Source of the DNA: a virus
Direction: 5' to 3' (one strand)
Virus record (IMG/VR): IMGVR_UViG_3300021963_000637
Coordinates: 1 to 24,329 of that record
Length of the DNA: 24,329 bases
Part shown: positions 11,110 to 21,850 of the stretch, piece after piece
Layout: each line of letters opens with the position of its first letter
Position numbering within the stretch: position 1 is the first letter of the stretch
Notes under the pieces: generated by a model
Database searches by the model: none
What the model saw: only the letters and a program-made list of their open reading frames with translations
Told to the model about the DNA's origin: nothing
Translations under genes and position numbers: made by a program

Positions 11110-11832
11110 ATGGCAGGGTTACTCGCTGAGCGTCAAGAAAGAGGATTGGTTGATGCTATTAATAGTGGATATGGAAAAAATGGAGCGAAACCATTTACCC
11201 TTGTTGGTGCAAATGGAGTGAGAATAACTAATGTAATCTCAGCAGAAAAATTTGAAGGAAGATCATCTGCTGGAACTGAACCATATACCGATGTAATTAT
11301 TACAACTACAACAAAAAAAATTAATGTTTCAAATAAAGGTGAGAGTGCTCCCAGTATTGCGGGTGGAGGATTAGCTGGATTAGAACTTGCTGTTCCAGGT
11401 TTAACTAAATTGTTTTTGGAAGCAGCATTAGCAGAATATAAGAAAAAAGGATTCAAGGCAGGAATGTCTGGACTTCCCGATATGTATGGAAAGGTAAGTG
11501 ATTCTTTAAAAGAAACAATTGTGGTTGGTAATAAAAAAATGGGTGGACCAATTCATTATATGTACATTGGACCCATGGATGTTACATCTTCATTTTCTGG
11601 TGGTACGTTGAAAGTTAATGGTAATTTTTACGAAGCAAAGAAATATGCTAAAGATAACGACTTATATTTAAGACTTAGAAAAAGAAGAGAAGACCAACCT
11701 TTTGAACCAAAAAAGAAAGATTCTAAAGGTCTTCCATTAATTCTTGGGAGATCTCCAAGTAGAGGGGATTCTGGAAGAAGAATCGTAACAGCAAAAAAAC
11801 CACCTAAAAATGCTCTAACTGTAGAGTTTTGA
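11110..11832 (+). CDS. Unrecognised 240-aa protein, possibly nuclease-like
   Basis: The start ATG at 11110 overlaps an AAGGA, unusually close for an RBS. The N-terminal helix AERQERGLVDAI is followed by short strands (FTLVGANGVRITNV), a GTEPYTDVIITTTTKK segment, INVSNKGESAPS, and the loop AGGGLAGLE. The order E10, D61, then S74-x-K76 after a beta hairpin is compatible with a PD-(D/E)XK-type nuclease core, but these residues do not prove it. The C-terminus (from about 180) is basic, with RLRKRRED, KKKDSKG and KKPPKN, and could bind DNA or pack beside it. It sits behind a tRNA and a late box and before a likely head-packaged protein. Confidence 0.75.
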   Translation: MAGLLAERQERGLVDAINSGYGKNGAKPFTLVGANGVRITNVISAEKFEGRSSAGTEPYTDVIITTTTKKINVSNKGESAPSIAGGGLAGLELAVPGLTKLFLEAALAEYKKKGFKAGMSGLPDMYGKVSDSLKETIVVGNKKMGGPIHYMYIGPMDVTSSFSGGTLKVNGNFYEAKKYAKDNDLYLRLRKRREDQPFEPKKKDSKGLPLILGRSPSRGDSGRRIVTAKKPPKNALTVEF

Positions 11833-11839
11833 ATAAATA
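11833..11839 (+). promoter_or_regulatory. Late-box-like ATAAATA
   Basis: ATAAATA overlapping the end of the 240-aa gene, 20 bases before the next ATG. It lacks the first T of the full TATAAATA. It could be a late promoter for the nucleotidyltransferase gene; such AT-rich strings also occur by chance at gene ends here. Confidence 0.35.
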
Positions 11840-11858
11840 AGAGTATATTAAGATAAAT

Positions 11859-13073
11859 ATGAAACAGTTTTTCAATTTTCTGAACGAAGCAAAAGATTCC
11901 CAAGCGTCAATGCAGGCAAAGCGTTTGGGTCTTAAGGGCGATGGCCATGGTGGGTGGTATAATCCCCAAGGAGAATTTGTTGCAAAAACAGAAAAGGGAG
12001 AACTAAAGTTTTATAATCAGGGGCAGAGAACTGGGGAAAGAGATCTTCCTCAGCAAAGAACTAAAGCAAATCAACAAGTTGCAGCAACTCAAGCAGCAAC
12101 AAAACCACAAGAACAGCAACCAGAAAGAAAGCAGGCAGAAGTTCTTCGTGGTGATGAAGAAGGCAAAGGTGTAACCGTTGTGTTTGGTCGTTTTAATCCA
12201 CCAACAACTGGACATAAAAAACTTTTAGATTCTGCATCGAGCATTTCTTCTGGTTCTGAGTTAAGAATTTATCCTTCAAGATCACAAGATCCTAAGAAGA
12301 ATCCATTAGATCCTTCAACAAAGATTGAATATATGAAAAAAATGTTCCCCAAGTATGAGGAGAGCATTATTGATGATGATAATATGAAGTCTATCTTTGA
12401 TGTATTAAAGACTGCTGATGACGAGGGATTTACTGATGTAACAATCGTCGTTGGTGCAGATCGTCTTGGAGAATTTAAGAACTTAGCTAATAAGTATAAT
12501 GGAGATCTTTATACATTTGATATGATTAATGTTGTATCAGCAGGAGAAAGAGATGCTGATGCAGAAGGTGTGGAAGGAATGTCTGCATCTAAGATGAGAA
12601 AAGCAGCAGCAGATGATGATTTTGATACATTTAAGTCAGGAATTCCTAAGTCATTGAGTCCAGAAGAGACCAAAAATCTTTTTAATGCCCTCAAGAAATC
12701 AATGAAAGTGTCTGCAAAGGAATCTTATAATCTGTGGGAGATTGCTCCTAAATTCGATTGGAAAAATCTCCGCGAAAATTATATTAGTGGAGCAATTTAT
12801 CAAGTTGGAGATTTGATTGAAAATTTAAACACAGGTCTTGTTGGTAGAATTATTCGTAGGGGAACTAATTACCTGATTTGTGTAACGAAAGAACAGTACA
12901 TGTTTAAGTCGTGGATTCGTGATGTCATGGAAACAGTTGTAAATTATTCTGGTCCTTCTGGAGTTCCTGCAAAACAAAGGGAAATTGGAACCGATGCAAT
13001 TCGAAAATATACAATGAGAATGACGGGTACAACAGATATTAAGAATTTCATAAATAAATACAGGAAAAAATAA
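11859..13073 (+). CDS. Nucleotidyltransferase-domain protein with capsid-targeting-like start
   Basis: A 404-aa multidomain protein. Residues 1-11 (MKQFFNFLNEA) resemble the T4 internal-protein head-targeting start MKTYQEFIAEA, and LNE|A (8-11) fits the T4 prohead protease consensus (L/I)xE|(G/A). Residues 20-56 form a small glycine-rich module and 65-92 are Gln/Ala-rich. Residues 104-280 form a cytidylyltransferase-like domain: VVFGRFNPPTTGH with the TTGH variant of HxGH (116-119), TIVVGADRLGEF, and MSASKMR (241-247) in the place of ISSTxxR. This is the NMN/pantetheine adenylyltransferase fold; the substrate is unknown. The C-terminal 100 residues (YQVGDLIENLNTGLVGR, SWIRDVME) form another compact domain. 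No clear RBS is visible before the ATG. Confidence 0.85.
   Translation: MKQFFNFLNEAKDSQASMQAKRLGLKGDGHGGWYNPQGEFVAKTEKGELKFYNQGQRTGERDLPQQRTKANQQVAATQAATKPQEQQPERKQAEVLRGDEEGKGVTVVFGRFNPPTTGHKKLLDSASSISSGSELRIYPSRSQDPKKNPLDPSTKIEYMKKMFPKYEESIIDDDNMKSIFDVLKTADDEGFTDVTIVVGADRLGEFKNLANKYNGDLYTFDMINVVSAGERDADAEGVEGMSASKMRKAAADDDFDTFKSGIPKSLSPEETKNLFNALKKSMKVSAKESYNLWEIAPKFDWKNLRENYISGAIYQVGDLIENLNTGLVGRIIRRGTNYLICVTKEQYMFKSWIRDVMETVVNYSGPSGVPAKQREIGTDAIRKYTMRMTGTTDIKNFINKYRKK
13050..13060 (+). promoter_or_regulatory. Tandem late-box-like ATAAATA
   Basis: Two overlapping ATAAATA copies (13050-13056 and 13054-13060) inside the end of the nucleotidyltransferase gene, 25 bases before the 482-aa gene. 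They are partly forced by coding, so the evidence is weak. Confidence 0.3.
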
Positions 13074-13084
13074 TCTGTATAAAG

Positions 13085-14533
13085 ATGTCTGAAAACATTT
13101 TAAATGATATCTCCAAGGTATACCTGGAGAAAATCGCTGTTGATGAAGCGGTAAGAGGTCAAGATACTGAGATGAGAAAGGCTGCCTCTGCAGAAAGAAG
13201 AGCAGGTGATACCTTAACTAAAAAGTTACCCGCATATAAGGGTAAAGAATACGGAAAGTTCCAAAAAGATCAAATTTCTTACATCAATAAAAAAACCAAA
13301 GGAAAGCATATTCCTGGTATGGCTAATGAAGCACTTGATCCTGTAGGTAAAGAAGATTCAGATATTGATAATGATGGTGATACTGATAAGTCGGATAAGT
13401 ATCTTCATAAGCGCCGTAAGGCAATTGGAAAAGCAATCGCTACTAGAAAAGAATCTTTCTCAAACTGGAGACAAGATCTTGTAGAAGTAATGGATGAGGT
13501 TGAGGGAGATAAAAAGATTAAGGAAAAAAAAGTAGAGAACAAGATTATTATTAATCCCGAACTCAAAGAAGCAGTTGAGGAACTTGGTGGCCAACTGATT
13601 GAAATGGTTGAGATTGAAGAAGGTTACAAACCAATTGGTAGAGAAAAAGAGTCTGCAATGTATCGTCGTGCAGGAAATCTTGCTCGTACTGCAGTATCTT
13701 CTACTGGAAAGAAAAAAGAAGTTGCACAAAAGAAGTCTTCTAACATCGTAAGTGCAATCACCAGACAAAAAGAGAAAGAAAGATTTGATCGCATTGGTCA
13801 ATCTCCTGCACATAATGAAGAAGTTGAGTATGAGATTGAAGAAGGTTATAAAGAGATTGATCGTGAAAAGCATGGACGTATGTATGATAGATATAAAAAA
13901 CTGAGAACTGCTGCTATGAATGATGCTAGAGAGACTGGTGAAGCATCAGGTTTAAACAGATATAAAATGGGTAAAATGGGTAAAGTTATTGATAAATCTG
14001 CAGAGAATCTTAGAAACAAAACTAAGAATGAAGAATTTGAATTGAATGAAAAGACTCTGACTCCTGCAGAAACAAAGAAGAAGGAGCAAATTGTCAAGTC
14101 AATGAAGAAGAGTGCAGGTGACTTTGAAAAGAGATACCCTGGGCGTGGCAAAGAGGTCATGTATGCAACTGCTACGAAGCAAGCAAAGAAGTTGGCTGAG
14201 GAAGAAACTCAGGATCCTGCTGAAAAAAGAATTCAAAAGCAGCAGCAACAGAGAATGTTACAACTCCTCCAGCAAAAGCAGAGAGCTGTAAGATCTGGTG
14301 TAACAGATATCAGTGCTTCCTATGAAGCGAATGGTGAGCAACTTACTGAAAAGCAAAGTGCTCTGGACATTGTAAGAGCATCTGTCGAAGATAAGTATGG
14401 CAAAGGTGCTCTGATGACTGGAAAAACAAAGAAACCAAAGGCAACTGCCGCACAGAAAGCAGCAGCACAAAAAGCATCTAATGCTTACGTTAAAAAAACC
14501 TCCGATTACTTACACTCATCTCCAAGAGATTGA
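13085..14533 (+). CDS. Lys/Glu-rich repeat protein with EF-hand loop, probably head-associated
   Basis: A 482-aa, highly charged, mostly helical protein. An EF-hand/dockerin-like calcium loop lies at D93-D104 (DIDNDGDTDKSD, with D at positions 1, 3, 5, 9 and 12 and G at 6). A unit is duplicated: EIEEGYKPIGREK...MYRR from 176 and EIEEGYKEIDREK...MYDR from 250, a 74-residue period. Both copies contain IEE|G, matching the prohead protease consensus. A later segment (YPGRGKEVMYATATKQAKKLAEE, about 351-373, split here as YPGRGKEVMY and ATATKQAKKLAEE) recalls sequences in other cyanophage virion proteins. Glu-rich prohead-core composition, possible cleavage sites and its place after a head-targeted-looking gene suggest a scaffold or internal head protein. 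The exact role is unknown. Confidence 0.8.
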   Translation: MSENILNDISKVYLEKIAVDEAVRGQDTEMRKAASAERRAGDTLTKKLPAYKGKEYGKFQKDQISYINKKTKGKHIPGMANEALDPVGKEDSDIDNDGDTDKSDKYLHKRRKAIGKAIATRKESFSNWRQDLVEVMDEVEGDKKIKEKKVENKIIINPELKEAVEELGGQLIEMVEIEEGYKPIGREKESAMYRRAGNLARTAVSSTGKKKEVAQKKSSNIVSAITRQKEKERFDRIGQSPAHNEEVEYEIEEGYKEIDREKHGRMYDRYKKLRTAAMNDARETGEASGLNRYKMGKMGKVIDKSAENLRNKTKNEEFELNEKTLTPAETKKKEQIVKSMKKSAGDFEKRYPGRGKEVMYATATKQAKKLAEEETQDPAEKRIQKQQQQRMLQLLQQKQRAVRSGVTDISASYEANGEQLTEKQSALDIVRASVEDKYGKGALMTGKTKKPKATAAQKAAAQKASNAYVKKTSDYLHSSPRD

Positions 14534-14842: not shown

Positions 14843-15367
14843 ATGGCACTCTGGGGAAATAATGACAATAAAGGTTCAGGTGGAACCGTAACGCTGAATT
14901 ATTCTACCCGCGTTGTAATTGGTAGTGGAACCACTTTTGGCCAAGTTGGCGCAGCTGCAACTGGAGATGTAATTCGCTTTGGTCCAAAAGGAGAAATTGG
15001 AAATGCTGTAATCGTCGGTATTGCAAGCACCACACAACTCTCTATTGCCTCAACCGCTGGATTGAGTGGCGTTGCAATCGCTGCCACCGACTTCCAAATC
15101 AGTGAACAACCTAAGTATACTGTTCTTGATAGTCGTTGGAGTGAAATCAATACTAACTATGAACCACATGTTTATGGTGTTGCAGCTGCAGGTCTGGCTA
15201 ATGCTCAAGGAACAAAGTATCAACTAACACACGCTGGTTGGGTAGGTGTTACAACTTACAATGATAACACTGGGACACTGAGAGTTAAGACAGAAACTCT
15301 TGTTGCAATGTCTGGTATTACAACTGGCAACCTTCCAATTTACGACGGCGATCCAACAGTTGCTTGA
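14843..15367 (+). CDS. Virion structural protein, MALWGNN family
   Basis: A 174-aa protein starting MALWGNNDNKGSGGTVTLNY. It is rich in G, A, T, S and V with alternating beta strands (RVVIGSGTTFGQVGAAATGD, then IRFGPKGEIGNAVIVGI, then LSIASTAGLSGVAIA), ending PIYDGDPTVA. It matches a family I know from cyanophage genomes, with MALWGNND starts and a GTTFGQVGAA...TGDVIRFG core, labelled virion structural protein and often present in several copies. The composition is typical of a head decoration or fibre protein. It follows an exact late box, and GGGA lies about 10 bases upstream of the ATG. The precise virion location is unknown. Confidence 0.85.
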   Translation: MALWGNNDNKGSGGTVTLNYSTRVVIGSGTTFGQVGAAATGDVIRFGPKGEIGNAVIVGIASTTQLSIASTAGLSGVAIAATDFQISEQPKYTVLDSRWSEINTNYEPHVYGVAAAGLANAQGTKYQLTHAGWVGVTTYNDNTGTLRVKTETLVAMSGITTGNLPIYDGDPTVA

Positions 15368-15373
15368 TAATAT

Positions 15374-15757
15374 ATGATCTTTAGTGAATTGACGGAGGAG
15401 AATTTTCTTCTGTTTGCGATTAAACATTATGAAAATGCTCAAGCGGTAACCAAAGAAGATTTTGATAAGGATCTTCAGCATTTTAAGTACATCAAAAGAT
15501 TACTTAAGAAGTATAAAAATTCTGGTGAGTTGAAAGCACATCTGCTTCTGAATCATTTTATTATTCTTTATAATATCTTTGGTGATGCTGCTACTCCAAT
15601 GCTATTCTTTAAGATTGAAAAGGATCTTTGGTCAACTATCAAGACGTTTATAATCTTTTTGAATAAACTTCCTGAGACTCCGAAGTGTTATGTTCATGAT
15701 GTTCCTGTTGATATAACTTGTCTTTCACAACTTCAGAACCTTTGTAAAAATGGCTAA
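15374..15757 (+). CDS. Helical 127-aa protein of unknown function
   Basis: A 127-aa protein starting MIFSELTEENFLLFAIKHYEN, 7 bases after the structural gene. It is predominantly helical: DFDKDLQHFKYIKRLLKKY, then LKAHLLLNHFIILYNIFG, then LWSTIKTFIIFLNKLP, ending in a conserved-looking VPVDITCLSQLQ. I recall very similar small proteins across T4-like cyanophages without an assigned role. The second helix contains H-x5-H in a hydrophobic context, but no known metal-site motif is complete. It overlaps the following 62-aa gene by 8 bases, so the two are coupled. Confidence 0.8.
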   Translation: MIFSELTEENFLLFAIKHYENAQAVTKEDFDKDLQHFKYIKRLLKKYKNSGELKAHLLLNHFIILYNIFGDAATPMLFFKIEKDLWSTIKTFIIFLNKLPETPKCYVHDVPVDITCLSQLQNLCKNG

Positions 15758-15938
15758 TCTGGATAGAATAATTCAAATTATCAGAGAGCAAATGGCAGCA
15801 GGCACTGGGGGATTCACCGGTTCTTCAGATCCAAAAGGTCCTGTAGCAGGATTCGATCCTGTCATGAAGTTTGTTAGAAGAAAGAAGTATGCATCCCTTG
15901 GTGTGGGTTCTCGTAAAAGGTGGAAAAAAGATAAATAA
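15750..15938 (+). CDS. Small basic protein, 62 aa
   Basis: The start lies 8 bases inside the preceding gene. The N-terminal helix MANLDRIIQIIREQMAAG is followed by a flexible GGFTGSSDPKGPVAG linker and a strongly basic C-terminus (FVRRKKY, GSRKRWKKDK). It looks like a nucleic-acid-binding or internal structural peptide. Its neighbours are virion-type and membrane-type genes. No family function is recognised. Confidence 0.75.
   Translation: MANLDRIIQIIREQMAAGTGGFTGSSDPKGPVAGFDPVMKFVRRKKYASLGVGSRKRWKKDK
15931..15937 (+). promoter_or_regulatory. Late-box-like ATAAATA
   Basis: GATAAATA over the stop of the 62-aa gene, 55 bases before the next ATG in a 53-base intergenic stretch. A possible late promoter for the coiled-coil membrane gene; weak because it overlaps coding sequence. 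Confidence 0.3.
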
Positions 15939-17343: not shown

Positions 17344-19640
17344 GTAATGGAACCAAAGTTGTCAAGAGAAATGGTTCAATTGAGTCTCTTGATCTAGATA
17401 AGATGCACCTGATGGTTGAAGAGGCATGTAGCGGTCTTGCAGGGGTCTCTGCGAGTCAAGTGGAAATGACATCGGGCATTCAATTTTACAATGGAATCTC
17501 CACAGCTGAGATTCAAGAAATTCTGATCCGTAGTGCAAGTGATCTGATTGACCTTGAACATCCAAACTATCAATACGTTGCTGCTCGTCTTCTTCTGTTT
17601 GCTGTACGTAAACAACTTTATGGGAAGATGAAAGAACTTCCTACTTTAGAACAACACATCATTGATTGTGTGTCTGCTGAAGTTTATGATCATGATATTT
17701 ACAACAAATATTCGCAGGAAGAAATTGCTAAGGCTGATTCGTTTATCGATCATTCTCGTGATTTCTTGTTCACTTATGCCGGTCTGCGACAGGTTGTTGA
17801 TAAGTACCTTGTGCAAGACCGCAGCAGCGGAGGAGTCTATGAAACTCCCCAGTTTATGTACATGATGATTGCTCTGACCATTTTTGCAGAGTATCCAAAA
17901 GAAACCAGAATGTCATACGTTAAGAGGTACTATGACGCAATCAGCAAGCACAAAATTAACATTCCTACGCCAATCATGGCAGGTGTTAGAACCCCACTTC
18001 GCCAATTTGCAAGTTGCGTTCTTGTTGACGTTGATGACACCCTTGATAGCATCTTCAGCTCTGATATGGCAATTGGTCGCTATGTTGCTCAAAGAGCAGG
18101 AATTGGTATCAACGCAGGTCGAATCCGGGGCATCAACTCTAAGATCCGAGGTGGTGAAGTTCAACACACAGGTGTTGTACCTTTTCTCAAAAAGTTTGAG
18201 GCAACTGTCCGATGCTGCACTCAAAATGGCATCCGAGGTGGATCTGCAACAGTCCACTTCCCAATCTGGCACCAAGAAATAGAAGATATTTTAGTTCTTA
18301 AAAATAACAAGGGTACGGAAGATAATCGTGTCCGTAAACTTGATTACTCTATTCAGATTAGCAAGTTATTCTATGAACGATTTATTCAAGACGGTGAGAT
18401 CACGTTATTCTCCCCCCATAACGTACCTAGACTTTATTCTAGCTTTGGACTCCCTGAGTTTGATGATCTCTATGTACAATATGAAAACGATCCGACCATT
18501 CCGAAAAAGACTGTTAAGGCACAAGAACTCATTCTTGATCTCCTTAAAGAACGTGCAGAGACGGGTCGCGTCTACATTATGAATATTGACCATTGCAATT
18601 CTCATTCATCCTTCAAGGATAAGATTGAGATGAGTAATCTGTGTCAAGAAATTACTCTGCCAACATATCCGATTCAACATATCGATGACGAAAATGGCGA
18701 GATTGCATTGTGCATTTTGTCGGCAATTAATGTAGGCAAAGTGAAGTCTGATGAAGAACTGGAAGAACTCTGCGATCTTTCTGTTCGCGGCCTGGATGAA
18801 TTGATTGATTATCAGAAGTATCCAGTAGTATCCGCAGAGTTAGCCACAAAGGCACGTAGATCGCTTGGAATCGGTTTTATCGGTCTTGCACACTATCTTG
18901 CTAAGTTGGGATTTAATTACGAGTCCCAGGGCGCATGGGATGCTGTTCATGGACTCTCAGAGTCTTTCCAATATTATCTTCTCAAAGCATCAAATCAACT
19001 CGCCAAGGAGAAAGGCCACTGCGAAAACTTTGGTCGCACCAAGTATGCAGATGGAATACTGCCCATTGATACTTACAAGAAAGAAGTAGACGAAATCGTT
19101 ACCCCGAAGTACCAACATGACTGGGAAGCTCTTAGAGTATCTATTCAGCAGCACGGTCTCAGACACAGCACACTGTCCGCACAGATGCCATCGGAGAGCA
19201 GTTCCGTTGTGTCAAATGCAACCAACGGAATTGAACCCCCTCGTGCCTTCCTGTCCATTAAGAAGTCCAAGAAAGGGCCTCTTAAGCAGATTGTTCCACA
19301 GTATGCTACGCTGAAGAATAATTACACATTGTTGTGGGACATGAAGAGTAACGAAGGTTACATTAAAATTGTCGCTATGATGCAGAAGTTCTTCGATCAG
19401 GCTATTTCTGGTAACTGGAGTTACAATCCAGAGAATTATCCTGACAATGAAGTTCCTACTTCGGTCATGGCAAATGACTTTTTGACTACATACAAGTACG
19501 GGTGGAAGACTTCTTATTACCAAAACACTTACGACATCAAAACTGATGAGGTAATTGAAGATAAGAAACCCAATCTTGAAGATCTAATGAATGAGTTAAG
19601 TAAAGTTGAGGAGGGAGAGTGTGAATCCTGTGCAGTTTAA
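17340..19640 (+). CDS. nrdA: Ribonucleotide reductase large subunit NrdA, class Ia
   Basis: A 766-aa catalytic subunit that reduces ribonucleoside diphosphates. The N-terminus has an ATP-cone-like segment (VVKRNGSIESLDLDKM). Active-site residues align with E. coli NrdA: C226 in ASCVLVD, NLCQE with N433, C435 and E437, C458 in ALCILS, and the MPSESSSVVSNATNGIEPPR loop. The C-terminal shuttle cysteines are present (C761 and C764 in ECESCAV), and tyrosines for radical transfer lie in WKTSYYQNTY. The gene appears intact with no intron or intein, which are common in phage nrdA. It overlaps gp61 by 4 bases and is followed directly by nrdB. Confidence 0.97.
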   Translation: MSNGTKVVKRNGSIESLDLDKMHLMVEEACSGLAGVSASQVEMTSGIQFYNGISTAEIQEILIRSASDLIDLEHPNYQYVAARLLLFAVRKQLYGKMKELPTLEQHIIDCVSAEVYDHDIYNKYSQEEIAKADSFIDHSRDFLFTYAGLRQVVDKYLVQDRSSGGVYETPQFMYMMIALTIFAEYPKETRMSYVKRYYDAISKHKINIPTPIMAGVRTPLRQFASCVLVDVDDTLDSIFSSDMAIGRYVAQRAGIGINAGRIRGINSKIRGGEVQHTGVVPFLKKFEATVRCCTQNGIRGGSATVHFPIWHQEIEDILVLKNNKGTEDNRVRKLDYSIQISKLFYERFIQDGEITLFSPHNVPRLYSSFGLPEFDDLYVQYENDPTIPKKTVKAQELILDLLKERAETGRVYIMNIDHCNSHSSFKDKIEMSNLCQEITLPTYPIQHIDDENGEIALCILSAINVGKVKSDEELEELCDLSVRGLDELIDYQKYPVVSAELATKARRSLGIGFIGLAHYLAKLGFNYESQGAWDAVHGLSESFQYYLLKASNQLAKEKGHCENFGRTKYADGILPIDTYKKEVDEIVTPKYQHDWEALRVSIQQHGLRHSTLSAQMPSESSSVVSNATNGIEPPRAFLSIKKSKKGPLKQIVPQYATLKNNYTLLWDMKSNEGYIKIVAMMQKFFDQAISGNWSYNPENYPDNEVPTSVMANDFLTTYKYGWKTSYYQNTYDIKTDEVIEDKKPNLEDLMNELSKVEEGECESCAV

Positions 19641-20862: not shown

Positions 20863-21024
20863 ATGCCTAGGAATCAGATTTCTAAAGAAGAAATCAAAAC
20901 TCGCGTATTAGAGTTAAAGAATAAACTTTATATGGATCACATAAGACCTGACATGGACATGAAGGGCCTTGCTCATAAATATCTGAATGAAGTCATTGAT
21001 ATGATTAATGAATACCGATATTGA
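20863..21024 (+). CDS. Small helical protein, 53 aa
   Basis: A 53-codon gene whose ATG is the first triplet after the nrdB terminator T tract, with no free Shine-Dalgarno. The product starts MPRNQISKEEIKTRVLELKN and continues KLYMDHIRPDMDMKG and LAHKYLNEVIDMINEYRY: two amphipathic helices around a proline turn. The pattern resembles small conserved cyanophage proteins. It overlaps the sulfotransferase gene by 17 bases. Translation would require readthrough of the terminator or initiation inside it, so the gene is likely but not certain. Confidence 0.65.
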   Translation: MPRNQISKEEIKTRVLELKNKLYMDHIRPDMDMKGLAHKYLNEVIDMINEYRY

Positions 21025-21850
21025 TAAAAGAATTGTTCCTTTAACTGGTCTTCCAAGATCAGGATCCACTTTGTTAATGAGCATTTTGAATCAAAATGAT
21101 TTATTTACAGTAGCTCCAGACTCAGACCTTTCTCCATTATTAGGTTCAATTCGTAACTGGGGGTCTGATATGTTAAAAAAATCACAACTTCCCCATAAGA
21201 ATTTTCATAACTCTATTTTAAATTTTTGTAGATCTGGTGCATTATCCTGGTTAAATGATAATTGTAAGACAGATTTTTTGATTGATAAGAATAGATTCTG
21301 GATATATCAACACCAATTTATGTTTCAAGTTTTTCCAAATATTCAAATGATTTTGAATATTCGAGATTTGAGATTTGTCATTAATTCGATGTTAAAATCT
21401 CAATCTAATACTTTTTGTATAAATTTTCAAAATTATTACTCGGATATGAATGAAGATTTTATGCTTCAAAGAGTAAAAGATTGTTTAAATACTTGGTGGT
21501 TAAAAGAAGTTTTAGTTAGTTTAAAAGAATTGATTGAAGTTTCTCCAAATTATAGAGAGCAACTCTTAATTTTTAGACATGAGCAATTAATTTTAAATCC
21601 TCAAGACTCAATGAATATAATTTATGATTTTTTTGAACTACCAAGGTATGAACATGATTTTAATAATATTGAAAAAATAGAGCCTCATTATGACAACATG
21701 TATATGCCCTATGGGGATCATCAAATACAATCAAAATTGTCAACTAAATTGCCAGATAAGTTATCGCATCTTCCAGAAAAATATGCTAACTGGATTGTTG
21801 AAGAATATAAATGGTATTATGAAAAATTTTATCCAGAAGTTCTTCAATAA
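21008..21850 (+). CDS. Sulfotransferase
   Basis: A 280-aa PAPS-dependent sulfotransferase. The 5'-phosphosulfate loop TGLPRSGSTLL is at 13-23, and the 3'-phosphate-binding motif is NIRDLRFVINS with R119 and S127 at the usual 8-residue spacing. A C-terminal helix-rich part (EEYKWYYEKF) ends the domain as in other family members. The acceptor could be a glycan, lipid or small molecule; it is not predictable. The coding DNA is clearly more AT-rich than its neighbours: 44 of 180 bases are G or C in 21421-21600, against 27 of 60 in 18001-18060 of nrdA. This suggests a recent acquisition. It overlaps the 53-aa gene upstream, and its TAA overlaps the endonuclease ATG. Confidence 0.88.
   Translation: MNTDIDKRIVPLTGLPRSGSTLLMSILNQNDLFTVAPDSDLSPLLGSIRNWGSDMLKKSQLPHKNFHNSILNFCRSGALSWLNDNCKTDFLIDKNRFWIYQHQFMFQVFPNIQMILNIRDLRFVINSMLKSQSNTFCINFQNYYSDMNEDFMLQRVKDCLNTWWLKEVLVSLKELIEVSPNYREQLLIFRHEQLILNPQDSMNIIYDFFELPRYEHDFNNIEKIEPHYDNMYMPYGDHQIQSKLSTKLPDKLSHLPEKYANWIVEEYKWYYEKFYPEVLQ

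Follow-up and report, generated by a model that had tools for sequence, protein, structure and literature searches.

Gene and surroundings

The DNA analyzed here, which we call the window, is a virus contig of 24.3 kb from a T4-like cyanophage, a virus infecting marine cyanobacteria, and its genes match those of Kyanoviridae. On its plus strand lies an intact open reading frame with an ATG start (11859-13073) encoding 404 amino acids. The original prediction proposed that this gene specifies a nucleotidyltransferase that may be loaded into the phage head and injected; the frame, its start MKQFFNFLNEA, and the motifs GRFNPPTTGH (residues 110-119) and MSASKMR (residues 241-247) are exactly as described there. 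The features of the locus are as follows.

11833-11839 (+): ATAAATA upstream of the enzyme gene, like a T4 late promoter (putative promoter)
11853-11859 (+): second ATAAATA, overlapping the enzyme start codon (putative role)
11859-11891 (+): residues 1-11, MKQFFNFLNEA, like a capsid targeting sequence (T4 determinants from PMC9026906); predicted helix, residues 2-12
after base 11888 (+): predicted prohead-protease cut, after E10
11892-12023 (+): residues 12-55, small DGHGGWY module, common to the virion-detected S-CREM2 proteins gp12 and gp14
12024-12158 (+): residues 56-100, Q/K/E-rich linker, unconserved and predicted to be disordered
12159-12713 (+): residues 101-285, nucleotidylyltransferase domain, PF01467-like
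12186-12215 (+): residues 110-119, catalytic motif GRFNPPTTGH
12579-12599 (+): residues 241-247, second nucleotide-binding motif MSASKMR
12759-12938 (+): residues 301-360, C-terminal KOW/SH3-like barrel (best Foldseek E value 3e-3, a weak match)
12939-13070 (+): C-terminal tail, ending in FINKYRKK
13085-14533 (+): neighboring gene, homologous in its N-terminal part to S-SCSM1 gp92 (43% over 122 amino acids)
14843-15367 (+): neighboring gene, homologue of S-SCSM1 gp95 (61%)
15750-15938 (+): 62-amino-acid gene, homologue of S-SCSM1 gp97, resembling the major capsid protein N-arm

Matches to the enzyme family occur in 533 phage records. PHROGs names the window protein a cytidyltransferase (E value, 4e-105), and it is a direct member of the T4-GC190/phrog_395 cytidyltransferase family, with no difference in kind; the best matches, in S-SM2 and S-SCSM1, are 59% identical over the full length, and three relatives have been reported in virions. 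Downstream of the enzyme gene, the gene order is that of a run of virion genes in S-SCSM1 that are positive by mass spectrometry (MS); gp92, gp95, and gp97 are each annotated as virion proteins on that basis. The upstream gene (11110-11832) had no Pfam or PHROG match and no similarity to S-SCSM1 gp90. In many relatives this place, directly upstream of the enzyme, is held by a T4-GC71 gene (for example, L099:3145-4014 and L102:2262-4037), whose product contains KWDGAPA, a motif reminiscent of KxDG in ligases and nucleotidyltransferases; in S-PM2 it forms a fusion with the enzyme.

The window contains ATAAATA 13 times, always on the coding plus strand and twice just ahead of the enzyme gene. The expected mean over both strands is 6.7, and 13 sites were reached in 2 of 100 shuffles. 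The resemblance to T4 late promoters suggests that the enzyme gene may be expressed late. Elsewhere in the window is a sulfotransferase-family gene (21008-21850, plus strand; PF13469, E value 2e-15). PADLOC models gave no match.

The KOW/SH3-like barrel is a separate open reading frame in S-PM2 and S-RIM32. The S-PM2d141 label "possible cytitidyltransferase" and the label "ribonucleotide reductase alpha subunit" were set aside, since what they name is the KOW-like piece alone. In databases, the stand-alone KOW-like domain (phrog_4808; L095:3031-3312) wrongly carries the name of the ribonucleotide reductase alpha subunit or of NrdB.

The N-terminus resembles the T4 capsid targeting sequence

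The T4 internal proteins encoded by ipI, ipII, and ipIII carry a capsid targeting sequence (Mullaney and Black 1996; review, PMC9026906). In mutational work reviewed there, the first ten residues of IPIII sufficed for head incorporation; residues 4 and 7 were important to targeting, and residues 8 and 10 to processing (PMC9026906). In the T4 record, ipII and ipIII both begin MKTYQEFIAEA, which confirms the start from which the resemblance had been drawn. The window protein has F4, F7, L8, E10, and A11, which includes every published T4 determinant. Like the T4 internal proteins, it joins the same targeting (4 and 7) and processing (8 and 10) residues to an E↓A cut site. Unlike those proteins, which are small and have no known enzyme domain, it carries the tag at the head of a 404-residue multidomain protein with an adenylyltransferase fold.

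Relatives found with the whole protein as the query mostly start MK[STQ]F..F(L/I/F).E(A/S). Across 39 homologues, both targeting residues are kept: F7 is invariant, and F4 is found in at least 90%, giving an aromatic residue at position 4 and F at position 7. E10 is likewise invariant. Among the relatives, one subgroup has S at residue 11, and F or C occurs at residue 8 in some.

The proposed match to the prohead protease consensus (L/I)xE↓(G/A) is present as L8 N9 E10 A11. Would such a site be used in these phages? In S-SCSM1 and S-CREM2, the capsid proteins that resemble gp23 align with the FLTE↓A of T4 gp23 as FLAE↓A and LLTE↓A; LAE↓A and LTE↓A in these proteins indicate that the same kind of site is present in these phages. 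Residues F59, F62, L63, E65, and A66 of T4 gp23 correspond in register to F4, F7, L8, E10, and A11 of the tag. Judged from these alignments, the window protein is likely cut between E10 and A11.

The T4 gp23 cut site, FGSFLTE↓A, and the targeting tag share this register. T4 gp61.1 (L217, record positions 18966-19130) has a targeting-like start, MKTFKEFIKE, and aligns with gp23 over 37 residues around the cleavage site with a score reached in 0 of 2,000 shuffles. The stretch of the major capsid protein N-arm that follows the predicted cut is repeated in short proteins detected in virions (loci 15750-15938, plus strand, in the window; L085:43121-43306; L090:28342-29235). The window copy, GTGGFTGSSDPKGPVAGFDPVMKFVRRK, matches the S-CREM2 capsid protein, GADGFTGAAAPGGPNAGFDPVMIGLIRR, at 51% over 35 amino acids.

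Conservation of the tag

Perhaps the N-terminus resembles the T4 tag by chance? The set of relatives found with the whole protein had been partly seeded by the N-terminus, so the collection was repeated with queries that lacked it. The tag was present in all 81 homologues obtained in this way, of which 80 form one lineage (position 9 being its most variable) and the remaining one, L105, lies far from it. With the sequences thinned to 70% identity, mean conservation was 2.7 bits per column over residues 1-11, on par with the enzyme domain (2.5 bits) and against 1.1 bits in the linker (residues 56-100). Diverged members also keep the tag: S-CREM2 has MKNFSSFLTEA, S-N03 has MKGFSNFLIEA, S-CRM01 has MKLFNQFFKEA, and P-RSM6 has MITFHVFITEA. 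In S-CREM2, S-N03, and P-RSM6, it is kept though the following 90 residues cannot be aligned.

Residue shuffles predict about 0.09 matches to a T4-derived N-terminal pattern among the open reading frames of a cyanophage genome; 4 and 2 were seen in two genomes. At the DNA level, the tag pattern had 26 matches in 25 phage records, about half of them the adenylyltransferase-like enzyme itself, versus 1 for a reversed-pattern control. Across all of T4, the DNA pattern matches just three genes: ipII, ipIII, and 61.1. Shuffles, the reversed-pattern control, and conservation together rule out a chance resemblance.

Relatives in jumbo phages, Cr30, HTVC008M, S-PM2, S-RIM32, and MED4-213 have the enzyme without the tag. 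Hence, the enzyme does not depend on packaging. Within the main lineages, we found no homologues lacking both the N-terminal motif and the active site, and the untagged relatives retain the enzyme.

The enzyme domain and its substrate

The cytidylyltransferase-like domain proposed at the outset is borne out. Pfam PF01467 matches residues 108-206 at 23.0 bits, above the gathering cutoff of 21. F109, G110, R111, N113, P115, G118, and H119 around the first motif and S242, A243, S244, and R247 in the second do not vary across 39 homologues. The AlphaFold model is confident for a domain at residues 101-285 and also has the helix (residues 2-12) and the C-terminal barrel; VIA-align matches this predicted model to the fold with Z scores of 12.6 to 13.9 over about 155 residues (root mean square deviation about 3). 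The invariant residues of GRFNPPxxGH and SASxxR, with the modeled fold, indicate that the protein is very probably an active nucleotidylyltransferase.

Fold and motifs alike uphold a nucleotidylyltransferase and make no choice between a CoaD type, acting on pantetheine phosphate, and an NMN/NaMN type: Z scores for CoaD (13.9), NadD (13.0), and NMNAT (12.8) tie within about 1. The window protein resembles NadD, NadM, NadR, and CoaD in fold and in both signature motifs (T/HxGH and SxSxxR). It is unlike them in showing 12-19% identity in the aligned structures, in falling short of the family cutoffs, and in adding the tag, the DGHGGWY module, and the C-terminal barrel. With TIGR01526 (NadR type), for example, it scores 19.8 bits, short of the equivalog cutoff of 341. 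We rejected filing it as NadR, NadD, or CoaD, as curated cutoffs were not reached and the folds tie. A sequence-profile search of the PDB with the window protein returned no usable match.

Among the 39 members, NCBIfam models for NMN/NaMN enzymes match 21 and 16 (best E value, 3e-6) and coaD matches 11 (best, 2e-4), all with weak scores. We put NMN or NaMN as the substrate at an even balance of belief. Restoration of NAD+ against an NAD-depleting defense is known in other phages, according to one report (PMC12774641); by that analogy, and not by evidence from this locus, an NMN/NaMN transferase acting early is plausible. A packaged and delivered enzyme with another substrate, one of CoaD type or one that modifies a host macromolecule with nucleotides, would be a version of the explanation we prefer and is compatible with packaging. 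CoaD as the top structural match, in that near tie, and scores below every curated cutoff for a specific enzyme speak for it; against it, the NMN/NaMN models match more members with better, if weak, E values. We regard this variant as a tentative alternative.

Tagged homologues in virions

Virion proteomes have been published for several relatives. S-SM1 virions held the cytidylyltransferase T4-GC190, and S-PM2 encodes T4-GC190, which was not detected (PMC3037559). The S-SCSM1 homologue, ORF91, called NMNAT, is in the virion proteome (PMC9602691) and is also marked as a virion protein in GenBank; the S-CREM2 homologue, ORF154, was detected by 3 peptides (PMC10665884). All three virion-detected homologues are tagged (S-SM1, MKKFSAFLNEA; S-SCSM1, MKSFLQFLKEA; S-CREM2, MKNFSSFLTEA). 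The S-PM2 copy is untagged; depending on the record, it either runs on from the gene before it or is interrupted by a frameshift. This comparison spans four phages and is therefore a pattern, not proof. An "NMNAT" has also been reported in S-CBWM1 virions; we rejected it as a fourth tagged virion homologue, since the sole such open reading frame is a different one without the tag.

Virion presence of the enzyme family and its possible injection are thus already published: PMC9602691 and PMC10665884 proposed, without a targeting sequence, that the particle brings the enzyme into the host, where it would act on NAD. In the open literature we searched, no paper linked capsid targeting to the cyanophage enzyme. 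Since related viruses share the tag and the enzyme is in the particles of three of them, the window enzyme is probably loaded into the head. With the T4 determinants and the conservation across the family, this part of the original prediction is well supported, and we hold head packaging of the window protein to be highly likely, the published virion data being those of its relatives.

Other tagged proteins

We read the N-termini of 24 S-CREM2 virion proteins outside the annotated structural set. All three of those listed as regulatory are tagged: gp6 (MKDFDSFLEE), a SAM hydrolase (Pfam SAM lyase, E value 2e-19); gp14 (VKRFDAFLTE), a kinase; and gp154 (MKNFSSFLTE), the enzyme itself. S-CREM2 gp13 and gp136 also match the tag, and gp12 has FASFMAEA at residues 19-26. 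The Cas9 label of gp12 was discarded, as it has no Pfam match.

With a relaxed tag pattern built on T4 residues, 5 of 6 matching annotated S-CREM2 proteins are MS positive (Fisher P = 0.003; P = 0.0009 when pooled with S-SCSM1), values that are optimistic because the pattern was chosen after the S-CREM2 N-termini had been seen. A stricter, earlier pattern (K/R at position 2, A/G/S/T at position 11, and an ATG start) recovered nothing but the enzyme in each genome and missed S-CREM2 gp6, gp13, gp14, and gp136.

S-N03, S-H34, and S-CRM01 have tag-like starts on the same genes, some of them degenerate (the S-H34 kinase begins MRLSQFNENA). In S-CRM01, genes 131-127 (L224:2249-6827) are five consecutive genes with tag-like starts, the enzyme last, and may form a cargo operon. 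A further S-CRM01 protein begins MKTFDEFLTE, followed by a GNAT-like domain scoring just below Pfam cutoffs.

We lean, cautiously, toward a broader reading in which an N-terminal address code directs a whole array of enzymes into the heads of Kyanoviridae; the tagged set would comprise a SAM lyase, a kinase, a GNAT-like protein, and DGHGxY-module proteins along with the adenylyltransferase, its most widespread cargo. If so, the delivered enzymes could counter restriction or NAD-depleting defenses before phage gene expression.

A probably packaged enzyme that may act early in the host

The reading we prefer, with reasonable confidence, is that the window protein is a T4-type internal head protein with an adenylyltransferase cargo, one member of a wider set of tagged cargo, which would be bound to the core, cut, delivered, and active early in the host. 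The enzyme would be made late in infection, and its N-terminal helix, MKQFFNFLNEA, would tie it to the prohead scaffold core. A gp21-like prohead protease would then cleave after E10, freeing the mature protein, from A11 onward, inside the head alongside the DNA. At the next infection it would exit through the tail; such delivery into the host is, in our judgment, probable. There it would act early, most likely in dinucleotide synthesis, for example, of NAD from NMN or NaMN, and the originally suggested effect on host NAD or CoA pools may follow.

T4 Alt is a packaged ADP-ribosyltransferase that takes ADP-ribose from NAD. The window protein would be like Alt, which is cleaved by the prohead protease (PMC9026906), in being a virion-borne enzyme tied to NAD chemistry. 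It would be unlike Alt in its reaction, making a dinucleotide rather than transferring ADP-ribose.

Might the protein instead be a tagged structural or core part of the prohead, packaged without being a delivered effector, its enzyme domain serving assembly or being incidental after ejection? The gene does have other virion protein genes as neighbors, the linker and the C-terminal barrel of its product resemble interaction parts, and ejection is itself a deduced step. Against this, the catalytic residues are invariant in 39 homologues, and the tag on an unrelated SAM lyase and a kinase-like protein in S-CREM2 is explained more simply as a mark of cargo. We consider the structural role unlikely.

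Carry-over, in which an intracellular enzyme sticks to particles and the N-terminus, an ancestral amphipathic helix, serves another purpose, draws on the low peptide count in S-CREM2, on the untagged NMNAT of S-CBWM1 virions, and on the proteome authors' own concession of carry-over in CsCl preparations (PMC9602691, PMC10665884), but it is improbable given that tagged proteins are overrepresented among virion proteins, that the tag reproduces the T4 determinants residue by residue, cleavable E↓A included, and that it recurs on unrelated proteins.

Cytidylyltransferases and kinases have repeatedly been found in cyanophage particles, and proteomics groups could not separate cargo from contamination. 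The conserved T4-type tag offers a mechanism and a test, as a predictor of packaged unknown proteins in abundant ocean phages. What cyanophages deliver at infection thereby becomes directly testable, and the tag points to early metabolic or antidefense action on photosynthetic hosts.

Small tagged proteins

A family of 105 to 108 amino acids, with the start MK[ST][FY]..F[MLI]SE[SA]VNI...GDFNGNLY, is found in four phages (L195, L206, L207, and L208). Its S-SCSM1 member, gp30 (106 amino acids), is tagged, yet MS negative. Caulobacter phage Cr30 encodes a 106-amino-acid protein (L196:1213-1530, minus strand) that begins MKTFKQFFNES and weakly matches an ADP-ribosyltransferase/KptA-like profile (PARP, E value 0.002, below the cutoff). 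From this similarity, it is possibly a small tagged analogue of Alt.
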